In this document: positions 4,773 through 30,220 of the stretch, piece after piece
Position numbering within the stretch: position 1 is the first letter of the stretch
Layout: the number at the start of each line of letters is the position of its first letter
From: Eubacteriales bacterium
GTDB taxonomy: Bacteria > Bacillota > Clostridia > Oscillospirales > Acutalibacteraceae
Direction of reading: 5' to 3'
Assembly (NCBI GenBank): GCA_029219885.1
Contig: JAQXUH010000070.1
Coordinates: 1-35,951 of the forward strand
DNA: 35,951 nt
Position numbers and translations under genes: made by a program
The notes under the pieces: model-generated
What the model was told of the DNA's origin: nothing
Databases searched by the model: none
The model's input: the letters and a program-made list of their open reading frames with translations, nothing else

Positions 4773-5397
4773 TTTCCTTATCCTCACTTTCCCTTTTACT
4801 GTAAATGCAGCCGCAGAAATTCTGCCTGTAAAGATTATATTCCCTTGAAAGCTCTATTGACCTTTTATATCCCTCACGCTTTTTAAAATCTGAGGGCAGC
4901 CATTTCACGCCGATTTCCTTTTCAAGCTTAAAGCCAATCTCGTTAATCTTTTGAGAATTTTTCAGCGGACTGATAGAAAGAGTGGTGCAAAAATAATCAA
5001 AGCCTGATTCTTTAGCCTTTTGTGCCGTTTCTCTGAGTCTTAACTCATAACAGCGAAAACAGCGTTCTCCGCCCTCCTTGCAGTTTTCATAGCCTTTTGC
5101 GATATTTTCAAAGTCGTTGTAATCGTAATCGCAGTCGTAAAAGGACACAGGATTTTCTGTTTTCATAGAGCTTATAAGGCGTATCTGCTCTGCTTTTCTT
5201 TTTTCGTATTCCTCTTTGGGAGAAATATTAGGGTTGTAGTAAAAAACTGTGATTTTGAAATATTTTGACAGATATTCTATGGTATAGCTTGAGCAGGGAG
5301 CACAGCAGCTATGCAGGAAAAGAGAGGGCAAAAAGTCCTCTCTTTCATTTTTGTCTATTATTTTATCAAGCTCTTTTTGGTAGTTAATCTTATTCAT
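4765..5397 (-). CDS. queH: Epoxyqueuosine reductase QueH
   Basis: 210 aa. QueH is the cobalamin-independent, metal-containing enzyme that reduces epoxyqueuosine to queuosine at the wobble base of tRNAs with GUN anticodons. The Cys pairs that mark the family are visible: HSCCAPCSSY near the N-terminus, ERCFRCYELR in the middle, TTLSISPLKN, and NFCGCIYS at the C-terminus. The start overlaps the M23 peptidase stop by one base (TGATG) and the end overlaps rarA, so it is translated in a coupled chain. No other queuosine gene (tgt, queA) lies in the window. Confidence 0.93.
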   Translation of the reverse strand: MNKINYQKELDKIIDKNEREDFLPSLFLHSCCAPCSSYTIEYLSKYFKITVFYYNPNISPKEEYEKRKAEQIRLISSMKTENPVSFYDCDYDYNDFENIAKGYENCKEGGERCFRCYELRLRETAQKAKESGFDYFCTTLSISPLKNSQKINEIGFKLEKEIGVKWLPSDFKKREGYKRSIELSREYNLYRQNFCGCIYSKRESEDKENE

Positions 5398-6887
5398 CAG
5401 CTTAAGTAGTTTTTAGGATTGACTCTTCCTCCGTTAAGTCTGACCTCAAAGTGACAATGCGGTCCTGTTGAATTGCCTGTTGACCCGCTTTTCGCAATCG
5501 TCTGTCCCTTTTTAACCGTATCTCCGACGGAAACGAGAATAGAAGAATTATGAGCGTAAAGGGTAACAACGGAGCGGCCTGACTTGTCTGTTCCGTGATA
5601 AACCATAACATAGTAGCCGTAGCTGTAATCAAGCCTTTTAACAGTAATAACTATACCCTTTTGTGCGGCAACAACCTTTGAGCCTGTTGCACAAGGGAAA
5701 TCTATTCCGCCGTGGTATTTACCCGACGAGTAGTTAGGATAGCCAGCGGAAATCAAATGGTAAGACGGCACCGGATATGTCATATTCAAAACTGCATCGG
5801 ACTTTGAATATACGTCGGACTTGTTTTCCTTTTCAGATTCTTTCTTAGCATTTTTTTCGTCGGATGCGACAGCAGTAGTAGCCTCTTCGGAAGTTTTAAC
5901 ACCTGCAATAAGGTCCTGAATTTCCTTTTCCACAGCCTCCATAAGAGCACTGTCCTCATTTCTGAACTCGGTATACTGCTTATTCTGTGCCGTAAGCTCT
6001 GCGAGAAGCCTGTCGCTTTCTGCTCTGTCGGTAGCAAGAGACGCCTTTTTGCTTGCTATCTCCTGACTGTTCTTTTCAATAGAATTTTGCTTTGATACAA
6101 GGTCTGCCTTTTGAGCGTCAAGCTCGTCACGAACTGCTCGAAGCTGTGCCCTCTTTTCGTCAAGTCCGTCTTTTTTCATTGTGATTTCAGCCATTTGTGA
6201 CTGAACCTCAGCCAAAAGCTCGGAATCGCTTTTTGATACAGATTTAATCATCTCGTATCTTGTTAAAAAGCCTGACAAATCTTTACAGCTAATCAATGCA
6301 GAAATGATATTAAATTCACCGCTTATGTACATAACCTTAAGGCGGTAGCAGTAAGCGTCATAAACGCTTTGAAACTGAGCCTGAAGTGCGTCAAGCTCCG
6401 ACTGTACTGCGTCAACCTCTTCACTTAATGCGGTAAGATTTTTTTCGTTATCATTGATTTTCACCATAAGCTCATCAATTTCTGACTGCACCTTGGTGTT
6501 TTGATTTTCAAGAATTGTAAGCTGGTCGTTTACATATCCGATTTTTTGGTCAAGTGTGTCAATATATTCCTCTGTAACCTTTGAGCTTTTTTCAAGCTCT
6601 GCAAGCTTTTTGTCTGCTGCGGCGAGATTCTCCTCCAGCTCCTTCTGCTGTTCTTCAAGAGATTTCTGCACCTGAGAATCAACCTCTGCCTGCTGTGTAA
6701 CAAGGTTGCCTGCCTCGTCTGTTACAGCGTTGCCGAATTCATCAGTAACAGTAACTGCGGATACTGAATGAGCGGCAGTAGTTGACGGTGCCTGCTTTGT
6801 TGTGCTCTTTGCAAATGCAAGTGTAGGCACAAAGGTCATCAAGGTCATTATTATAGCTAAAAGAAATGAAAGTTTCTTTGTTTTCAA
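5397..6887 (-). CDS. Secreted coiled-coil M23 peptidase (FtsEX-linked, copy 1)
   Basis: 496 aa from a TTG start at 6887 (reads MKTKKLSFLLAII). I chose it because GGAAGGG lies just upstream and a clean signal peptide begins there, whereas the upstream in-frame ATG at 6938 has no RBS. After the signal peptide come long coiled coils with the shared motif YRLKVMYISG. An Ala/Glu/Lys linker leads to a C-terminal LytM/M23 domain with intact zinc ligands: HGGIDF (HxxxD) and GPHCHFEV (HxH). The layout matches PcsB/CwlO-type murein hydrolases activated by FtsEX to cut peptide cross-links during growth or division. It is the most distal of three tandem paralogues after ftsEX, and a possible extended -10 promoter lies just upstream. 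Confidence 0.9.
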   Translation of the reverse strand: MKTKKLSFLLAIIMTLMTFVPTLAFAKSTTKQAPSTTAAHSVSAVTVTDEFGNAVTDEAGNLVTQQAEVDSQVQKSLEEQQKELEENLAAADKKLAELEKSSKVTEEYIDTLDQKIGYVNDQLTILENQNTKVQSEIDELMVKINDNEKNLTALSEEVDAVQSELDALQAQFQSVYDAYCYRLKVMYISGEFNIISALISCKDLSGFLTRYEMIKSVSKSDSELLAEVQSQMAEITMKKDGLDEKRAQLRAVRDELDAQKADLVSKQNSIEKNSQEIASKKASLATDRAESDRLLAELTAQNKQYTEFRNEDSALMEAVEKEIQDLIAGVKTSEEATTAVASDEKNAKKESEKENKSDVYSKSDAVLNMTYPVPSYHLISAGYPNYSSGKYHGGIDFPCATGSKVVAAQKGIVITVKRLDYSYGYYVMVYHGTDKSGRSVVTLYAHNSSILVSVGDTVKKGQTIAKSGSTGNSTGPHCHFEVRLNGGRVNPKNYLS

Positions 6888-6921
6888 AATTAATCCCTTC
6901 CGGTAATGCTTTCTTAAGATA

Positions 6922-6930
6922 ATTATATCA
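6922..6930 (-). promoter_or_regulatory. Possible extended -10 promoter before M23 copy 1
   Basis: On the minus strand TGATATAAT matches an extended -10 element (TGnTATAAT), 35 bases before the TTG start, in the 92-base gap between M23 copies 2 and 1. No good -35 is present at 17 bases. The gap is the largest in the ftsEX block, so an internal promoter is plausible but weakly supported. Confidence 0.4.
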
Positions 6931-6979
6931 CAAATCACATCATAATAGTAGTATAAATTAATTAACTGACGGTAAACTT

Positions 6980-8410
6980 TTACGGCAGGTAAGGTTTAGG
7001 ATTTACGCAGTCGCTGTAAGGAGTTCTGACTTCAAAGTGGCAATGAGGTCCCGTTGAATTGCCTGTTGACCCGCTGTAGGCTATTATCTGTCCCTTTGTA
7101 ACATAATCTCCTGCGGAAACTGCAATGCTTGAATTATGTGCATAAAGAGTATATACATAATTTCCTGCGGAATCTTTCTTATCGTGCATAATTACAACGT
7201 AATAGCCATAGCTGTAATTAAGCTCTTTCTTGATTATAACAGTTCCTGATTCGGCGGCAACAACTGCCGAGCCTGTGGGACAGGAGAAGTCAACACCTGT
7301 ATGACCCTCATAGCCGGCACTTCCGTAATCGCAGGTGATTTTAGTCTGGCTCGGAACAGGATATGTCATATGGAGCCTGCTTGAATCTTCCGTTGTAGGC
7401 TGAGTAGTTGTAGTTGCTGCGGTAGTGCTTTCGCCGTCTGTTTTGTTTGAAGATGTTTCTTTTTTTGTGGTGGTCTGCTTTTTGGTGGTGGTCTGAGCCT
7501 CCATCTTCTTTTTGTATTCCTCGGCAGCCTTTGCAATCTCTGCGTTTACAGCCTCAAGCTCTGCCTGGTCCTGATTTCTGTATTCACTATAGGTCTGCGT
7601 GTCCTGATGGAGCTGTTCCAAAAGCTTGTCAGATTCGGACTTTTCGCTTTCATAAGCAGTCTGCTTTTCCTGATAAGAGGTCTGCTGACTTTCGAGATAA
7701 GTGATAGAGCTTGAAAGATTTTCTTTCGTTTCTTTCAAAGTAATCTGGTCCTCGGTAAGCTGTTTTTGCTTATTTTCCATTGAGGTTTTTGTGGCGGAAA
7801 GCTCCTGTGCCTGTGACTGAACAGACTGCAAAAGCTCCTTATCCGACTGTGATACACGCTTTATCATCTCGTATCTTGTAAGGAGTGTGGAAATATCAGG
7901 ACAGGTAAGGAGCATTGTTAAAATGCTTGTATCACCGCTGACATAAAGTGCCCTTATTCTTTGGCAGTAAAGCTGATAACTACTGTCAAACTGCACCTGA
8001 AGCTCGTCACTTTTCTGTGTCAGCTCTGCAATGTCAGTTTCAAGCTGAGCAATCTGCTGCTCATTTTCCTGCTGCTGAGTTTCAAGAAAAGTGATTTTTT
8101 CCTTAGAGCTTTCAATTTCCTGCTCGGAAAGAGTCAGCTCGTTTTTGAGATACTTTATCTTTTCGTCAAGAGTATTGATATACTCCTCGGTTTCCTTAGA
8201 CTGCTCCCCTAATGAATTAAGCTTTTCGTTGACTTCTTTAAGCTTTTGCTCGATTACTGCCTGCTTTTCCTCCGGAGAAAGATTTTCGTAGTCCTCGCTG
8301 TACTGAGTATCGTCTGCTTTCGCCACAAGTGAAACAGGTGCTGAAACCGCAAAAAAGCAAAAAGCCAACAAAACAGCAAATATCCTGATAAATAAACCTT
8401 GCTGTTTCAT
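6980..8410 (-). CDS. Secreted coiled-coil M23 peptidase (FtsEX-linked, copy 2)
   Basis: 476 aa from the ATG at 8410. An in-frame GTG at 8419 overlaps the Shine-Dalgarno (AGAGG), so the ATG is preferred. It has a signal peptide, coiled coils (about 50-285) with the shared YCQRIRALYVSG motif, and then a low-complexity Thr/Lys linker (about 310-350). The C-terminal M23 domain has HTGVDF, TLYAHNSS and GPHCHFEV, so the zinc ligands are intact. It is paralogous to its two neighbours. The linker is different from those of the other copies, which may set how far the catalytic domain reaches from the membrane. Confidence 0.9.
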   Translation of the reverse strand: MKQQGLFIRIFAVLLAFCFFAVSAPVSLVAKADDTQYSEDYENLSPEEKQAVIEQKLKEVNEKLNSLGEQSKETEEYINTLDEKIKYLKNELTLSEQEIESSKEKITFLETQQQENEQQIAQLETDIAELTQKSDELQVQFDSSYQLYCQRIRALYVSGDTSILTMLLTCPDISTLLTRYEMIKRVSQSDKELLQSVQSQAQELSATKTSMENKQKQLTEDQITLKETKENLSSSITYLESQQTSYQEKQTAYESEKSESDKLLEQLHQDTQTYSEYRNQDQAELEAVNAEIAKAAEEYKKKMEAQTTTKKQTTTKKETSSNKTDGESTTAATTTTQPTTEDSSRLHMTYPVPSQTKITCDYGSAGYEGHTGVDFSCPTGSAVVAAESGTVIIKKELNYSYGYYVVIMHDKKDSAGNYVYTLYAHNSSIAVSAGDYVTKGQIIAYSGSTGNSTGPHCHFEVRTPYSDCVNPKPYLP

Positions 8411-8443
8411 TGACTTCACCTCTTAACATAATATTACTATGTA

Positions 8444-9685
8444 TTAAAGATAGTTGTACGGATTAACTCTGTTACCGTTTACACGAACCTCGAAATGACA
8501 ATGAGGTCCTGTAGAGTTACCTGAAGAACCGCTCTTTGCTATAACCTGTCCTCGTGATACTGTCTGTCCTACGCTGACATTAATTGAGCTGTTGTGAGCA
8601 TAGAGAGTAGACAGACCGTTGCCGTGGTCAATCATAACATAATTGCCGTAGCTGTAGGTCAGATGCTGAACAAGAATAACCTTGCCTGACGCAGCCGCAT
8701 AGATGTTTGAGCCTGACGGTACAGGGAAATCTATACCGCCGTGGTAAGCACCTGATGAATAGTTAGGATAGCCTGCGGAAACTCGTCTTGAATCGGTAGG
8801 ATAGCCTAAAGCACCCGAGCCGTTACCTGTTGAGCCTGATATTGAGCCGTCGCCGCCTGATGCAGCAATAGCCGCAGCTCTGATTTGATTTTCAACCTCT
8901 TGAAGCTGTGCCTGGTTAGTTTCAATAAGCTCCATATATTCTGAGGTTTGAGAGGAAAGCTTCTGCATCAATGCGTTGCATTCTGCAACCTCTGAGTCAA
9001 GCTCACTCTTTGAAGAATCAATTTCGTTAATACTGTTTTGAAGCTCCTGCTTGTCCTCTTCAAGGGACTGCTTGTCATCGTTAAGCTCGTTACGCTTAAT
9101 TTCAAGCTCCTGCTTCTGTGCCTCGATTTCCTCCATTTTTGTCATAAGCTCATCAAGAATTGCACTGTCCTGCTCGGAAACAGACTTAATCATCTGTGCC
9201 CTTGTGAGCATAGCACTCATATCAGGACAAGTGAGAAGAACCTCAAGAGTGGAGGCAGAGCCTGAAACATACATAGCTCTGAGACGCTGGCAGTAGATGT
9301 TATATGTTTCATCAAATTCTGCCTGCTTTTTATCTATTTCAGCCTGAGCCTGAAGAATCTCATTTTCTGTTTTAGTAATCTTTTCGGATACTGCATTAAT
9401 CTCCGACTGCAAAGCAGCCTTGTCATCTTCAAGAGCATCAATTTTATCCTGAAGCAAATTTATTTTTGACTGCAAAGCACTGAGATATTCCTCTGTATCC
9501 TTTTTTTGTGATGCAAGCTCGTCAATCTTGCTTTGAGCACTGTTGATTTGACTTTGTATCTTTTCTTTCTCACTTTTAAGCTCCGACGTGGTTTTCGCCT
9601 GAGCAGTCATACCGAATGAGAAAGATGTAATTATAAGGGCAAAGCTCATAAGCAGGGACAAAAGCTTAGTAAATTTAGATGCCAC
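8444..9685 (-). CDS. Secreted coiled-coil M23 peptidase (FtsEX-linked, copy 3)
   Basis: 413 aa from a GTG start at 9683-9685, overlapping the ftsX stop by 11 bases, with GGAAGG 11 bases upstream. Signal peptide (MASKFTKLLSLLMSFALII, ends near AQA-KTT), continuous coiled coils to about residue 265 with YCQRLRAMYVSG, a short Gly/Ser linker, then an M23 domain with HGGIDF, STLYAHNSS and GPHCHFEV. It is the copy directly coupled to ftsX, so it is the best candidate for the primary FtsEX-activated hydrolase. The short Gly/Ser linker contrasts with the long linkers of copies 1 and 2. Confidence 0.92.
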   Translation of the reverse strand: MASKFTKLLSLLMSFALIITSFSFGMTAQAKTTSELKSEKEKIQSQINSAQSKIDELASQKKDTEEYLSALQSKINLLQDKIDALEDDKAALQSEINAVSEKITKTENEILQAQAEIDKKQAEFDETYNIYCQRLRAMYVSGSASTLEVLLTCPDMSAMLTRAQMIKSVSEQDSAILDELMTKMEEIEAQKQELEIKRNELNDDKQSLEEDKQELQNSINEIDSSKSELDSEVAECNALMQKLSSQTSEYMELIETNQAQLQEVENQIRAAAIAASGGDGSISGSTGNGSGALGYPTDSRRVSAGYPNYSSGAYHGGIDFPVPSGSNIYAAASGKVILVQHLTYSYGNYVMIDHGNGLSTLYAHNSSINVSVGQTVSRGQVIAKSGSSGNSTGPHCHFEVRVNGNRVNPYNYL

Positions 9686-13132: not shown

Positions 13133-13543
13133 TAATTTTGGGTATCTGTTTTTGTCTATTTTGCACAAACGAGTTTTTTTCAATCCGCTTTGTAACCAAA
13201 GTGAACACAACATCTTGTGGTTATAAAATTTAACGTTTTAATGTGATAAAGTGTATTTTTGTTAAATCGTTAGAAAAGGGTTAAAAAAATCTTACAATTT
13301 GTAACTTTTTTATTTTCATTTTTTTCAAAATACAACATCTTGTTGTTTTCTTTCGTTTTTACCATTTTTGTTACGATATACATACATTGTTTATTTACTG
13401 AACTGTTTTGATTTTGAACATTTATTTTCTTGATTTTTGTGAGCGTTTTTATACATTTTGCGTTAAAAATCACCATTTTGCTTATTATATATTATAATAT
13501 ATAATATATATTTAAAACTATTATATATGACGCAAAAAAAGAA
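13133..13543. other. AT-rich intergenic region without a convincing gene
   Basis: About 400 bases with no supported coding frame. It contains two copies of the 12-mer ACAACATCTTGT (13207-13218 and 13332-13343); the first is extended to the 14-base near-palindrome CACAACATCTTGTG. There is also a small hairpin CTTTG/CAAAG (about 13189-13202) and an almost pure A/T tract at about 13480-13528. Longer open frames here lack an RBS. Confidence 0.5.
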
Positions 13544-13563
13544 GCTCTCCAAAATCGGAGAGC
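13544..13563 (-). terminator. Intrinsic terminator of the five-gene envelope operon
   Basis: A 7-bp stem GCTCTCC/GGAGAGC with a 6-base loop, followed on the minus strand by TTCTTTTTTT. It lies 15 bases beyond the stop of the last gene of the operon (13578). Confidence 0.88.
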
Positions 13564-13577
13564 CTCACGCTGTAATT

Positions 13578-14402
13578 TCAGTATTTATAATCTTGTTTTC
13601 TCTTTTTAAAGACTGCCACGTTGGCACAGATTGATAACGCCGCAATAATAAAGCCTGCTATCATCATAAACACAAATACGCTTTTGAAAACGTTGCCTAC
13701 CGCCTGTGCATAAATCAGCGGATAAATATTCGGCGAGCGTCCTAATTTCAAAATCAGGCACATTGCACCTGTAAATATAAGAGTTATTCCCTCTGCGGTA
13801 AATGCCGAAAATACTCTCAACATAACATCGCTCGGCCTCTTGTAAAGCAGGAAAATTAATACAACCGGAAGTATCATCATAAGAAAGCTTACCGACACAA
13901 TGCTTTCATAATTATCATTGAAATTATATATGAACGCTGCAAGTCCGTCGGTATTCTTAAGTCCATAGCAGTCGGCGTAAATTTTTGCCGCCTCGTCTGC
14001 CGTGTTGTGAACAAGCTTTTTGTCATACTTTATGGAGTTGCCATCAAGATATTCGGTACAAAGCTGTTCAAATTTCTCGATTGTATCTTTAGTATAAAGA
14101 GTCGTATCGTGGCCGTCAAACAATCTCCTGACAGGAGAATCAGATGTAATTTCAGAAAAATTGCTTACCGCCTCAAAGGCTCTTACAGGTATTGAGCTTT
14201 TAACTGCCAAAGCCTCTATCCTGTCATCGAAATTTTTCTTGCACTGAGCCATTACCTTGTCAGAGGTAAGATGCTTTTGCATATAGCTTTCCGAGCAGAG
14301 AGTAGTTTTAACCGCAGTGGCAGAGGCACAAAGGCACCCGCCTGCCGCTATAATTACTATGCAGATTACGGAAAGAATTTTTCTTGTAGCTTTAAGTGAC
14401 AT
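13578..14402 (-). CDS. Four-TM membrane protein of unknown function (paralogue of 15932-16813)
   Basis: 274 aa. An N-terminal TM/signal anchor (about 8-30) is followed by an extracytoplasmic domain of about 140 residues and three TM segments (about 168-188, 200-222, 236-262), ending in a short basic tail (KKRKQD). The same layout and similar local motifs occur in the 293-aa protein at the other end of the operon: both have a predicted helical ectodomain with a DR/KLE-A pattern and then an LF/LY-G segment. I take the two as diverged paralogues. I do not recognise the family. The gene starts two bases after the stop of the sortase-like gene and ends at a terminator, so it is the last gene of the operon. 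Confidence 0.75.
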   Translation of the reverse strand: MSLKATRKILSVICIVIIAAGGCLCASATAVKTTLCSESYMQKHLTSDKVMAQCKKNFDDRIEALAVKSSIPVRAFEAVSNFSEITSDSPVRRLFDGHDTTLYTKDTIEKFEQLCTEYLDGNSIKYDKKLVHNTADEAAKIYADCYGLKNTDGLAAFIYNFNDNYESIVSVSFLMMILPVVLIFLLYKRPSDVMLRVFSAFTAEGITLIFTGAMCLILKLGRSPNIYPLIYAQAVGNVFKSVFVFMMIAGFIIAALSICANVAVFKKRKQDYKY

Positions 14403-14404
14403 AA

Positions 14405-15037
14405 CTATCCCTCCGTAACCTTACTGCCTGATATCATTTTGCAGACGCAGACAAAATATTCGTTGCTTATTCCGGGACCTACGCTGTTATCAGTAAAGAG
14501 AACAACAGCATTGCCAATACCCTCTCCGCAGCGTTTCAGCTGAGAATAATTTGATACAGTCATAGTATCTACAACCTCATAATCATATACGGAATAAAAG
14601 GTTGTAACAGTAACTGTATCCCCTTTTGCAAGCATTTTGAGCATACTGCTGTCATTTTTATAAATCTCTGCAAAAGACCTGCGTGTTTCGCCGATAAAAG
14701 CATCGTTTACGATATTAAGCTTTCCGCAGGCATTGACCTCGTTGGCATTATAAATAACGGGAAAGCTTGTATTTTCAATAGAAATATCGCCGATAATCGT
14801 ATTGTCGGAAACACAGCCGGCAATATCCCCTCTTTTTATGGTTTCGCCGAAATCGCCTTGAAATTCAGATGGCTCCTTGATTTCCTCTTTCTGATAATCG
14901 GCAAGGCTTACTGTTCTGTCCGTAAACGGAAAATCAATATTTGCAAGAACAGCACAAAACACAGCACTCAGCACTACGGCAACAATTACAGGAATAAGAG
15001 CAGAATATTTAATTAATCTCTTTTCGTCGTGATTCAT
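14405..15037 (-). CDS. Membrane-anchored sortase-fold protein without the catalytic residues
   Basis: 210 aa with one N-terminal TM (about 11-33). From about 80 to 205 the pattern follows class C/D/E sortases: GDISIENTSFPVIY, then FIGETRRSFAEI where sortases have an aGHR...F..L segment, then LAKGDTVTV, YDYEVVDTMTVSNYSQL, and VVLFTDNS where sortases have LTLxTC, then EYFVCVCK where they have R-x-V-x-A. The catalytic His, Cys and Arg positions are Glu117, Asp183 and Glu193 by this reading. Transpeptidase activity is therefore not expected; a scaffold or binding role is inferred. It sits between a soluble protein of unknown function and a four-TM protein in a five-gene operon. The fold is assigned by eye and needs structure prediction. 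Confidence 0.6.
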   Translation of the reverse strand: MNHDEKRLIKYSALIPVIVAVVLSAVFCAVLANIDFPFTDRTVSLADYQKEEIKEPSEFQGDFGETIKRGDIAGCVSDNTIIGDISIENTSFPVIYNANEVNACGKLNIVNDAFIGETRRSFAEIYKNDSSMLKMLAKGDTVTVTTFYSVYDYEVVDTMTVSNYSQLKRCGEGIGNAVVLFTDNSVGPGISNEYFVCVCKMISGSKVTEG

Positions 15038-15064
15038 TATCCGAAAATCCTTATTTTAAACAAA

Positions 15065-15913
15065 TTAGTTGTTGATGTTTTGGGACTGAAGTGCACTGTC
15101 CATAAAGTTAGTCTTCTTTTTCTTAGGCTTATATGCAGGCGGATTAGCAAGCTTTTTGGTCAAGCCGTTTTTCTTAGCGGTAATCTTGTTAATCTCGTGA
15201 ACAGGGCCTGACATATAGTCGGACATATATTTGTCGGCAACCTCCATCATAGCCTTGTCATTTTTCATTTCACCGAGAATTGTTACGCCGATAATATCCT
15301 GCACCTCGTTAGTGCCGTCCTCGTAAACCTCGTTGAGCATTTTGAAAAGCTTCTTTCTCTCTGTTTCGGTGCCGTTTGCAATAATATCAAGAACCTTTGG
15401 AGTACCTACTTCAGCAAAGAATGTTTCAGGAAGAAACTCGTCATACTTTGCAATATTAGCCTTGATAGCATTCTTTGTTTCAGGATAAAGAGTGCCGAAA
15501 CGGTTAGCAAGAGAATCAGTATCATAACTGATTACGCCGTTCTTTGCCTTTGTTCTTGAAACTGCCTTTGGCATCTTAACCTTATCAAGGTCAACCTTCT
15601 TTTTCTTTTTAAAGAGAGAATTGATTTCATCTTCAATTTCGTTGGCAAGAGATTTTGCATCTCTGTCATTATAGGTTTCGGCATCAAAAAGGCTGCGTGA
15701 GACAGTTTTAAAGCACTCCTCGCCGCCGTCATAATTATATGCACAATCAAAAGCCATAGTATTGTTTGAGCCGTCAAACACTACTCTGTACGCACCCTTT
15801 TCGCCTGAAAAGGTAATGCTTGTTTCGCTGTTTTTTTCCTTACTGAAGCCCAACTCCTCATTAACTGATGAAAGCTGTTTTTCAACAAGGCTGAATACTT
15901 CTGCTATTTCCAT
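15065..15913 (-). CDS. Conserved-looking soluble protein of unknown function
   Basis: 282 aa, no signal peptide or TM, rich in Lys/Glu/Asp, so probably cytoplasmic. The N-terminal 100 residues look like an alpha/beta module (EVFSLVEKQLSS, then ITFSGEKGAYRVVFDGSN). A basic linker (LFKKKKKVDLDKVKMPKAV) precedes a mostly helical C-terminal half (ETKNAIKANIAKYDEFLPET, then FKMLNEVYEDGTNEVQDII) and a Lys-rich tail. I do not recognise the family. It is third in the envelope operon, 18 bases after the first four-TM gene and 27 bases before the sortase-like gene, so a cytoplasmic partner for the membrane proteins is a reasonable inference. Confidence 0.65.
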   Translation of the reverse strand: MEIAEVFSLVEKQLSSVNEELGFSKEKNSETSITFSGEKGAYRVVFDGSNNTMAFDCAYNYDGGEECFKTVSRSLFDAETYNDRDAKSLANEIEDEINSLFKKKKKVDLDKVKMPKAVSRTKAKNGVISYDTDSLANRFGTLYPETKNAIKANIAKYDEFLPETFFAEVGTPKVLDIIANGTETERKKLFKMLNEVYEDGTNEVQDIIGVTILGEMKNDKAMMEVADKYMSDYMSGPVHEINKITAKKNGLTKKLANPPAYKPKKKKTNFMDSALQSQNINN

Positions 15914-15931
15914 ATTAAAATCTCCTATTTT

Positions 15932-16813
15932 TTAGATTAGATTATGTTCTATTTCATATTCCGTTTCGCTGTTTTTCAGCTTAAAGGAATAGTATTTATA
16001 ATTTGAAACGAATATTGTAATGCTGATTGCAATAAGCACAACACCTACAATAATTATTGTATTGGCGATTCTGCTCGTCGACTGCTCAATGGCAGAATTA
16101 TACGCGTCAATGTTTGTGAGCTTAATATTTGAAAGGTCAAACAGGAGCATTGTAGTGACGGGAATTGCCACACAAATTCCGCCTGCCGACATCAGCGACA
16201 TTGCACTGAAATTCAAGGAACGATGACGTCTTCCGCTTAAAAAGTAAACCGCAGTTCCTATTGCCGCTGACAGTATTGCGAGAATTACGGAAAGCTGAAC
16301 TGACCTGCCGAAAAAGACGGAAAAGGAATAAAAGTCCTGTGAATTAGTAATTTCATACACGCTGTTAAAGGCAGCCTTGACCTCGGAAATAATAGTTTTT
16401 ATTTCCTCTTGAGAAAGCTTTTCTGCCTTATTCTGCTTTGCGTTATAATCATCAAGAGCTCTTTTACAGTAAAGCTCAATATTCGTAGAATCGCTGACTG
16501 TTGCAGGACCGCCGCTGTAAAGTGTGTTAAGTGCTGTTGACTGAACCGATTTAAGAAAATCGTAGGAATACGCCTTTTTAATAGCCTCTCCCTCAAGTCC
16601 GTGACTTTCTGCAACATCCTCAAGCTTGTTATAAATATCAGCCGAAAGCTCCTGTGTCACTTGGTCGGAGACAAAATAATCGTTTGTGTACCTTTTGTTG
16701 GCAGACGTAAGAGAAAAGACAGAGAAAATACAGCAGCCTGCGATTGTAAAGGCAAGAGCAACCGAAAGTGCATAACAAAGAAATCGGCTGAAATAATAAT
16801 TTATCCTATTCAT
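15932..16813 (-). CDS. Four-TM membrane protein of unknown function (paralogue of 13578-14402)
   Basis: 293 aa from the ATG at 16813 (MNRINYYFSRFL), chosen because GGAG lies 9 bases upstream and it overlaps the stop of the small upstream gene by 8 bases; an in-frame ATG at 16837 lacks this. TM1 is at about 10-35, an extracytoplasmic helical domain spans about 36-165, and three C-terminal TM segments follow (about 172-193, 205-225, 252-275). The same topology and several aligned motifs occur in the last gene of the operon. No enzymatic motif is visible. Confidence 0.75.
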   Translation of the reverse strand: MNRINYYFSRFLCYALSVALAFTIAGCCIFSVFSLTSANKRYTNDYFVSDQVTQELSADIYNKLEDVAESHGLEGEAIKKAYSYDFLKSVQSTALNTLYSGGPATVSDSTNIELYCKRALDDYNAKQNKAEKLSQEEIKTIISEVKAAFNSVYEITNSQDFYSFSVFFGRSVQLSVILAILSAAIGTAVYFLSGRRHRSLNFSAMSLMSAGGICVAIPVTTMLLFDLSNIKLTNIDAYNSAIEQSTSRIANTIIIVGVVLIAISITIFVSNYKYYSFKLKNSETEYEIEHNLI

Positions 16814-16985
16814 CCGAAACAGCCTCCGTATCTGCATTTTGAGAATACCCGGAGCAATTTGGAATTGACTTTTCTATTGACGGTGCCGCAAGACACAATA
16901 CCGCAACAGACAAAGCTGTAACAAAAAGAGGAATAACAATGCTCTTTATCAATAAATTCCTTCTGTATTTTTCAAGGGCATTCAT
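16806..16985 (-). CDS. Small single-TM protein, first gene of the envelope operon
   Basis: 59 aa (MNALEKYRRNLLIKSIVIPL, then a hydrophobic stretch to about residue 35, then a short polar tail ending AVSDE). It is an N-in type signal anchor with a basic N-terminus. Three points support it as a real gene: it is the first open frame after a good promoter, a GGTGAAA ribosome site is present (weak), and its stop overlaps the next start by 8 bases. Many such small proteins are accessory subunits; no family is recognised. Confidence 0.6.
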   Translation of the reverse strand: MNALEKYRRNLLIKSIVIPLFVTALSVAVLCLAAPSIEKSIPNCSGYSQNADTEAVSDE

Positions 16986-17041: not shown

Positions 17042-17070
17042 ATTATAACATTACATAAGGCATTTGTCAC
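17042..17070 (-). promoter_or_regulatory. SigA-type promoter of the five-gene envelope operon
   Basis: On the minus strand GTGACA (17065-17070), 17 bases, TATAAT (17042-17047). It is back to back with the ddl promoter (17109-17137), leaving a 38-base gap between the two -35 boxes, so a shared regulator could act on both. Confidence 0.75.
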
Positions 17071-17108
17071 TAAATTTTTTAATAATATATAATTAAGAAT
17101 TTATTGTA

Positions 17109-29638: not shown

Positions 29639-30220
29639 TTATTCAGCCGACTGCTTGATTTTCTTATCGCAGACAAAGTGCATAATTATCTCGGCAATGT
29701 ATATAGCGAGAGTTACAAACCAGCCGATTTGCATACCGCCGATAATTACACCTAAAACCACGAAAACAACAGTATTGATTATGCTGAAAATCATATTTCT
29801 GATTAAGCCTGTTTTTGTAGAAGAAAACAGCGAAGAAATAATTACTGCAAGGGATAGCACAACAACGAGTGCCATACTCACAAGCGGCATCATTACGCTG
29901 CCTATTTCAATCTCACCTTTAACAAGCCCCATAATCAAAGTTACAAGGCTGATGTCATCATACATAGGCAGGCACATTGATGCAAGCGGTGTAAAAAACA
30001 GCACGAGCCTTACAATGAGCAGCGGTGATGCGATTGACGAGCTTTTCAAAATTCCCGTAAAATGATTAACTGCGTCAACCTCTTTCTGTGCCTTTCGGGC
30101 GTCATCCTCAAGACGCTCCTCAAGGTTGTAATACATAATATTTACACCGCATTTGGGGCAGTTTTCTTTCATATAGAAAGGACTTAATTTTTCGTTACAT
30201 TTGGGACAGCGGTTATTCAT
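29639..30220 (-). CDS. Zinc-ribbon membrane protein of unknown function
   Basis: 193 aa. The N-terminus is a two-CxxC zinc ribbon (CPKCNEKLSPFYMKENCPKC), then a charged linker (LEERLEDDARKAQKEVD) and about four TM segments (about 66-84, 105-128, 135-160, 163-182). The topology suggests a cytoplasmic ribbon and a membrane body. The start overlaps the upstream symporter gene by 8 bases, so the two are coupled; a functional link to transport is inferred only from this. Confidence 0.75.
   Translation of the reverse strand: MNNRCPKCNEKLSPFYMKENCPKCGVNIMYYNLEERLEDDARKAQKEVDAVNHFTGILKSSSIASPLLIVRLVLFFTPLASMCLPMYDDISLVTLIMGLVKGEIEIGSVMMPLVSMALVVVLSLAVIISSLFSSTKTGLIRNMIFSIINTVVFVVLGVIIGGMQIGWFVTLAIYIAEIIMHFVCDKKIKQSAE

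Follow-up and report, generated by a model that had tools for sequence, protein, structure and literature searches.

A catalytically inactive sortase-fold protein and its four-helix membrane partner as a probable accessory envelope pair in a genus of the Acutalibacteraceae

Sortases are enzymes that attach proteins to the cell wall. What role would a protein with a sortase fold play once the residues for this reaction are gone? The question is raised by a five-gene operon in a window of 35,951 nucleotides (41% GC), contig C70 of the 1.89-Mb genome G000. The operon lies on the minus strand in the order gA–gB–gC–gD–gE and is divergent from ddl. In the first-pass annotation, the 210-aa product of gD was proposed to be a dead sortase that serves as a binding or scaffold subunit of a membrane complex. 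A dead sortase within a conserved set of membrane genes is supported by alignment to active relatives, by profiles, by the fold search and by an analysis of selection, and gD may have such a binding or scaffold role. Together with a neighboring membrane protein of the family termed T here, it probably forms an accessory envelope complex without catalytic activity, which would most likely serve the assembly of surface polymers or of the wall.

The operon starts with gA (16806..16985; 59 aa), which overlaps gB (15932..16813; about 293 aa). The soluble gC (15065..15913; 282 aa) follows after 18 nt, gD (14405..15037; 210 aa) after a further 27 nt and gE (13578..14402; 274 aa) after only 2 nt. An alternative gB start at 16837 would give 301 aa; the start at 16813 is more likely because its ATG is preceded by GGAGG, gives an 8-nt overlap with the gA stop and matches the starts of the relatives. 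A promoter-like site on the minus strand (17042..17070; 11/12 in a consensus scan) consists of GTGACA, a 17-nt spacer and TATAAT, with TG before the second hexamer, and is overlapped by a second promoter-like site on the plus strand directed towards ddl (17064-17093). Downstream of gE, an intrinsic terminator on the minus strand (13541..13566) has an 11-pair stem with 6 G-C pairs and a T run. The five reading frames, their tight spacing and both sites are thus as claimed at first pass, where one promoter and one terminator were assigned to the operon. However, promoter-like matches also lie inside genes (22 in the region versus 14.3 expected from shuffles) and the same terminator scan gave weaker matches within gD and gE, so that a single promoter is likely but not proven.

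gD is predicted to have a single TM helix as its membrane anchor and a sortase-fold domain on the outer side of the membrane. None of the Pfam and NCBIfam cut-offs is reached by gD, that of the curated class D sortase model included; its single NCBIfam match is the sortase model TIGR01076 (12.4 bits versus a cut-off of 39.35). PF04203 is matched at E <= 0.01 by 12 of 32 sortase-like rows, the gD of the window not being among them. Against the PDB, gD gives weak matches to class A sortases (best E 0.0097), and profiles identify the sortase fold there, the profile built from orthologues only with moderate significance. The structural model of gD is of low confidence (mean pLDDT 48.1, from a two-row alignment); all 50 listed Foldseek matches of this model are sortases, and VIA also points to sortase. 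The sortase beta-barrel fold read from the sequence pattern at first pass is therefore upheld by profiles and by the fold search with this low-confidence model, and no unrelated fold was found.

The products of gB and gE belong to one family, T, of proteins with four TM helices. Iterated HMM searches started from either protein collect the identical 46 ORFs, and the profile comparison (100%) and the tree agree. T consists of TM1, about 130 mostly helical extracytoplasmic residues and TM2-4; the AlphaFold2 model of gE has a pLDDT of 83.9 and a pTM of 0.68. No Pfam or NCBIfam model names T consistently. In VIA, the gE model matches Lit best, and T matches Lit at 94.9% in a profile comparison in which the membrane-protein controls were single sequences rather than profiles and 24 of 25 Lit loci passed the ORF filter. 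PF07314, the Pfam family of Lit, is absent from the Pfam matches of gB, gE and 30 scanned members of T, one of which gives a weak ABC2_membrane_5 match. The likeness to Lit raises an alternative in which T, as a Lit-related lipid-handling membrane protein, is the working part and gD merely stabilises or positions it. This alternative has some chance, although we regard it as unlikely.

T directly follows 58 of 59 sortase-like genes in the fetched loci, at -50 to +22 bp; because loci were fetched for holding a sortase-like or a T match, this count is conditional, and not all T-positive genomes of the genus are included in it. The exception is L060, where T is split over two ORFs. Conservation of gene order in related genomes, suggested as a check at first pass, holds for the sortase–T order, which recurs at these 58 places, more than expected by chance. 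T was found without an adjacent sortase in four distant matches (G402, G384, G311 and G360) and in a weak second match in G261; these neighbor data exclude five weak class-wide matches (G162, G172, G275, G389 and G391), and the T of G243 runs off its contig. In L064, the T row represents gE, and the accompanying gD runs into the contig end. T was detected in 63 of 148 relatives and in 58 of 80 genus genomes. A class-wide search detected it in 18 of 291 genomes, a count that includes the genome of the window and several weak matches. The 22 genus genomes with no T match include many incomplete ones. Within the genus, the pair occupies at least four kinds of loci. With S for the sortase-like gene, the locus types are gC-S-T, mostly beside ddl, ilvD-S-T-ATPase, nifJ-S-T, a neighborhood with thyA/mltG-like genes (recognized by eye) and gA-gB.

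The last of these types is explained by gA, which corresponds to the membrane anchor of a gD-type sortase, present on its own without the sortase domain. An HMM of gD N-termini ranked 11 gA proteins first to 11th among 3008 small ORFs (E <= 0.0074; next 0.88). Conversely, a gA HMM placed 32 sortase N-termini ahead of the first of 869 background N-termini (E 0.013). Shared hydrophobicity was rejected as the cause of this match against the 406 hydrophobic ORFs among the 3008 and the 171 hydrophobic N-termini among the 869. These reciprocal matches indicate that gA-gB represents a second sortase/T pair, in which the anchor is all that is left of the sortase; 11 such pairs were seen, in part of the relatives only. 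Because gA-gB keeps just the sortase anchor beside its T, gD and gE may interact, with the anchor helix contacting T.

In an alignment of 59 sortase-like proteins including active relatives, the catalytic His, Cys and Arg columns of gD are occupied by Tyr126 (codon 14660..14662), Asp183 (14489..14491) and Tyr194 (14456..14458), all codons lying on the minus strand. The first-pass annotation was therefore right about Asp183 at the Cys column, but had placed Glu117 at the His column and Glu193, the neighbor of Tyr194, at the Arg column. The sole His of gD is His3. None of the 48 genus proteins has the catalytic His or Cys at its column, L054 having a Cys one column away, and Arg occurs at its column in two of them (L059 and L164). 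Outside the genus, all three residues are kept in 11 of 11 aligned sortases, and by eye in a twelfth (L104). No homologue was found with the triad at other positions; triad-bearing homologues occur outside the genus only, at the aligned positions, which indicates the ancestry of gD. Both the identity of gD as a pseudosortase and this ancestry are well supported.

In principle, gD could use other residues, such as Asp183 with Glu117 and Lys127, to carry out a different reaction with the same type of ligand. Consistently, Asp183 is found in 21 of the 30 proteins of the window's locus type, purifying selection acts on S, and among 24 gD orthologues G83 and K127 are invariant and E117, G119, D140, Y148 and G189 near-invariant. 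However, the Asp183 column holds Ser, Asn, Ala, Gln or Arg in the other 9 of the 30, and in the sister loci it holds Val, Ile, Pro, Ala, Glu, Thr, Gln or Phe, with Asp just in L054. Furthermore, only M1, G83, G139 and D140 reach 90% in the 32-row alignment A1, and the Gly-Asp of G139-D140 also occurs in the active L182 sortase (the same gene as L055). It is therefore quite unlikely that gD still works as an enzyme, and the reading of gD as a non-catalytic protein is preferred.

The active relatives indicate what the pair derives from. A substrate-like gene neighbors 10 of the 11 active pairs outside the genus, nine found by profile and that of L162 by eye. A sorting signal (e.g. LPFTG, IKQTG or VNQTG) is present in nine of the 11, flagged in eight of the nine profile-found genes and seen by eye in L162; in L160, the gene was found by profile and the signal was not flagged. 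In L178 the substrate-like gene lies downstream of T, the locus of L177 is cut by the contig end, and by eye the next genes of L055/L182 look like spoIIGA and sigE. Class D models match best in the two active relatives scanned (L172 and L182), and the L172 sortase passes the cut-off of the NCBIfam SrtD model (NF058671). Judged from sequence, the non-genus loci are class D sortase cassettes of substrate, sortase and T. By contrast, the genus loci gave no match to the substrate profile, and around 47 of the 48 dead copies no real sorting signal was found. Two ORFs flagged in the latter scan are T itself. A loose sorting-signal scan of the 76 window ORFs of at least 80 aa flagged FeoB alone, a false positive, in agreement with the first-pass view that no LPxTG substrate lies nearby. 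A further sortase of the same genome, encoded on contig C20, adjoins a protein with an SPSTG signal; by eye, this sortase has all three residues His, Cys and Arg at their positions.

The unrooted sortase tree, whose active members match class D and which holds no other sortase class, places the 11 active sortases on one side (100/99) and supports the genus copies as one group, on an alignment that includes the catalytic columns. Both this tree and the T tree sort the copies by locus type. On the T tree, ACT needs 2 changes, and 1 in 38% of bootstraps; a single origin of the genus copies is neither shown nor excluded by it. The simplest history suggested by these sequences is that catalysis was lost once, before copying. 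dN/dS is 0.19-0.38 for S (7 pairs, one of them saturated), 0.12-0.27 for orthologous T, 0.05-0.09 for gC and 0.03-0.07 for ddl, values that are rough since dS exceeds 1 in several pairs. The 48 dead copies are open frames of 177-231 aa; sequencing error or a pseudogene was rejected on the grounds of the many open orthologues and of dN/dS. That the pair is a functionless, decaying relic of a sortase cassette, as the lost substrate and triad, the truncated gA, the genus genomes with no T match and the faster evolution of S than of gC and ddl might suggest, is very unlikely given the rough dN/dS values of S and T, the 48 open frames and the several locus types, each grouping in the trees.

The pair does not extend to all five genes. 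gC, the sole operon product named by Pfam, is a DUF7674 protein (PF24722; 46.7 bits versus a cut-off of 27). It is present in 71 of 80 genus genomes and in 19 of the 22 with no T match, and was rejected as a dedicated partner of the pair because it is a core gene. A search with gC found no relatives in viral contigs. The proposed five-gene unit thus survives as a conserved gD-gE pair, accompanied by a truncated second pair and a core gene rather than by three equal members.

A link to surface polymers is drawn from a sister locus, not from the window operon. An ABC ATPase gene follows T in 12 of 12 ilvD-type loci, 11 of which begin with ilvD (L056 does not). The ATPase scanned, L097 of the window's own genome, has TagH and Wzt as its best matches, both scoring below the cut-offs. 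In other families, this ATPase (searched at E 1e-70) and a Wzm-type permease are encoded no more than 1.5 kb apart in 7 of 7 genomes with both matches, whereas in the genus, where contigs are fragmentary, they share a contig in 0 of 43; in the window's genome no ATPase lies beside the Wzm-type permease. Because of this difference, the exporter ATPase gene seems to have become separated from that of its permease in the genus and now to stand with the dead sortase pair. The ATPase is kept in 13 of 16 T-less genus genomes examined. Since both the ATPase and gC are kept in T-less genomes, neither depends on the pair.

These observations can be combined into a model. The ancestral locus would have been a cassette of three genes, for an active class D sortase, its 4-TM partner T and, as the substrate, a small secreted protein that carried a sorting signal at its C-terminus. 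On the line to the genus, the catalytic residues and the substrate would have been lost, and the sortase/T pair retained and then copied into several loci. The sortase-fold domain may still bind a ligand, such as a peptide, a lipid-linked wall precursor or a surface polymer, without cutting it. gD, as a pseudoenzyme probably derived from class D sortases, would then probably act with T as a non-catalytic docking or sensing complex for the assembly of a cell-surface polymer. A broader generalization is tentative, being somewhat doubtful as a whole: sortase pseudoenzymes with a dedicated Lit-like 4-TM partner, having lost the triad once in the genus, may have radiated as an envelope complex that joined the exporter ATPase, gC/ddl, nifJ and others, and T may also be an undescribed subunit of active class D cassettes across Clostridia.

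That a protein without triad and substrate has been kept, and copied along with a single membrane protein, points to a role of the pair beyond transpeptidation. A dead sortase lineage would be a natural case of separation of function, in which a former enzyme seems to have taken on a structural or sensing task in the cell envelope. T, as a dedicated membrane partner of active class D sortases, could explain how these are held near substrates or wall precursors. A literature search, with most subscription papers outside its scope, listed neither a natural dead sortase nor a membrane partner of sortases; papers listed there concern an engineered inactive sortase C and a degenerate sorting motif.

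Among known systems, class D sortases (NF033746, NF058671; C. perfringens SrtD, PDB 4d70) share with gD the sortase barrel and the N-terminal TM anchor, whereas gD lacks the catalytic His, Cys and Arg and has no substrate gene. CpSrtD is reported to be in an operon with an LPQTGS protein as well (PMC4498605). Lit (PF07314, PDB 7b0o), reported to have four TM helices and an extracytoplasmic cap (PMC8275575), resembles the gE model in both respects, but its His dyad is missing from gB and gE. FtsX/MacB-type ABC permeases have, like T, a TM helix, an extracytoplasmic part and three TM helices. This topology and the ABC ATPase of the sister locus had suggested that gB and gE are such permeases; the assignment was rejected, as gB, gE and T members gave no FtsX family match and the profile comparison with the window's FtsX, a single sequence, gave 0.9%. 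Finally, TagGH and Wzm-Wzt exporters differ from the window operon, which has no ABC gene, but resemble the ilvD-type sister loci, where a TagH/Wzt-like ATPase gene follows the pair.

The sortase copy of a sister locus (L054:5511-6206) aligns with Tyr in the column of the catalytic His and with an apparent Cys one column off that of the catalytic Cys. This copy may perhaps represent an intermediate stage in the loss of catalytic residues. Another sortase of the own genome (L098:3865-5278, contig C20) retains His, Cys and Arg, as judged by eye, and its neighbour is a protein whose sorting signal reads SPSTG.

An active class D-like cassette, consisting of substrate, sortase and the four-TM protein T, is present in genome G083 (L182:4321-8216, contig C7). 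spoIIGA- and sigE-like genes, recognized by eye, directly follow it. Such a position would link the cassette with sporulation. Distant T-like proteins with open frames of 436-486 aa are found in G311 (L106 and L180) and G391 (L108 and L118). In G311 the protein contains an extended insert of low complexity, and none of the adjoining genes inspected encodes a sortase.

Elsewhere in the window, three similar tandem proteins are encoded 3' of ftsE-ftsX (5397-9685, minus strand). Both of those scanned match Peptidase_M23, and one of these two also exceeds the CC_PcsB cut-off. A protein of 193 aa (29639-30220, minus strand), which begins like a zinc ribbon and contains several stretches of hydrophobic residues, gave no match in a Pfam scan.

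In the own genome, a TagH/Wzt-like ATPase gene stands next to the second pair that includes a dead sortase (L097:5502-7881), and an orphan Wzm-type permease is encoded at L183:1396-2274. These ATPase and permease genes lie on separate contigs; in other families the two are adjacent.
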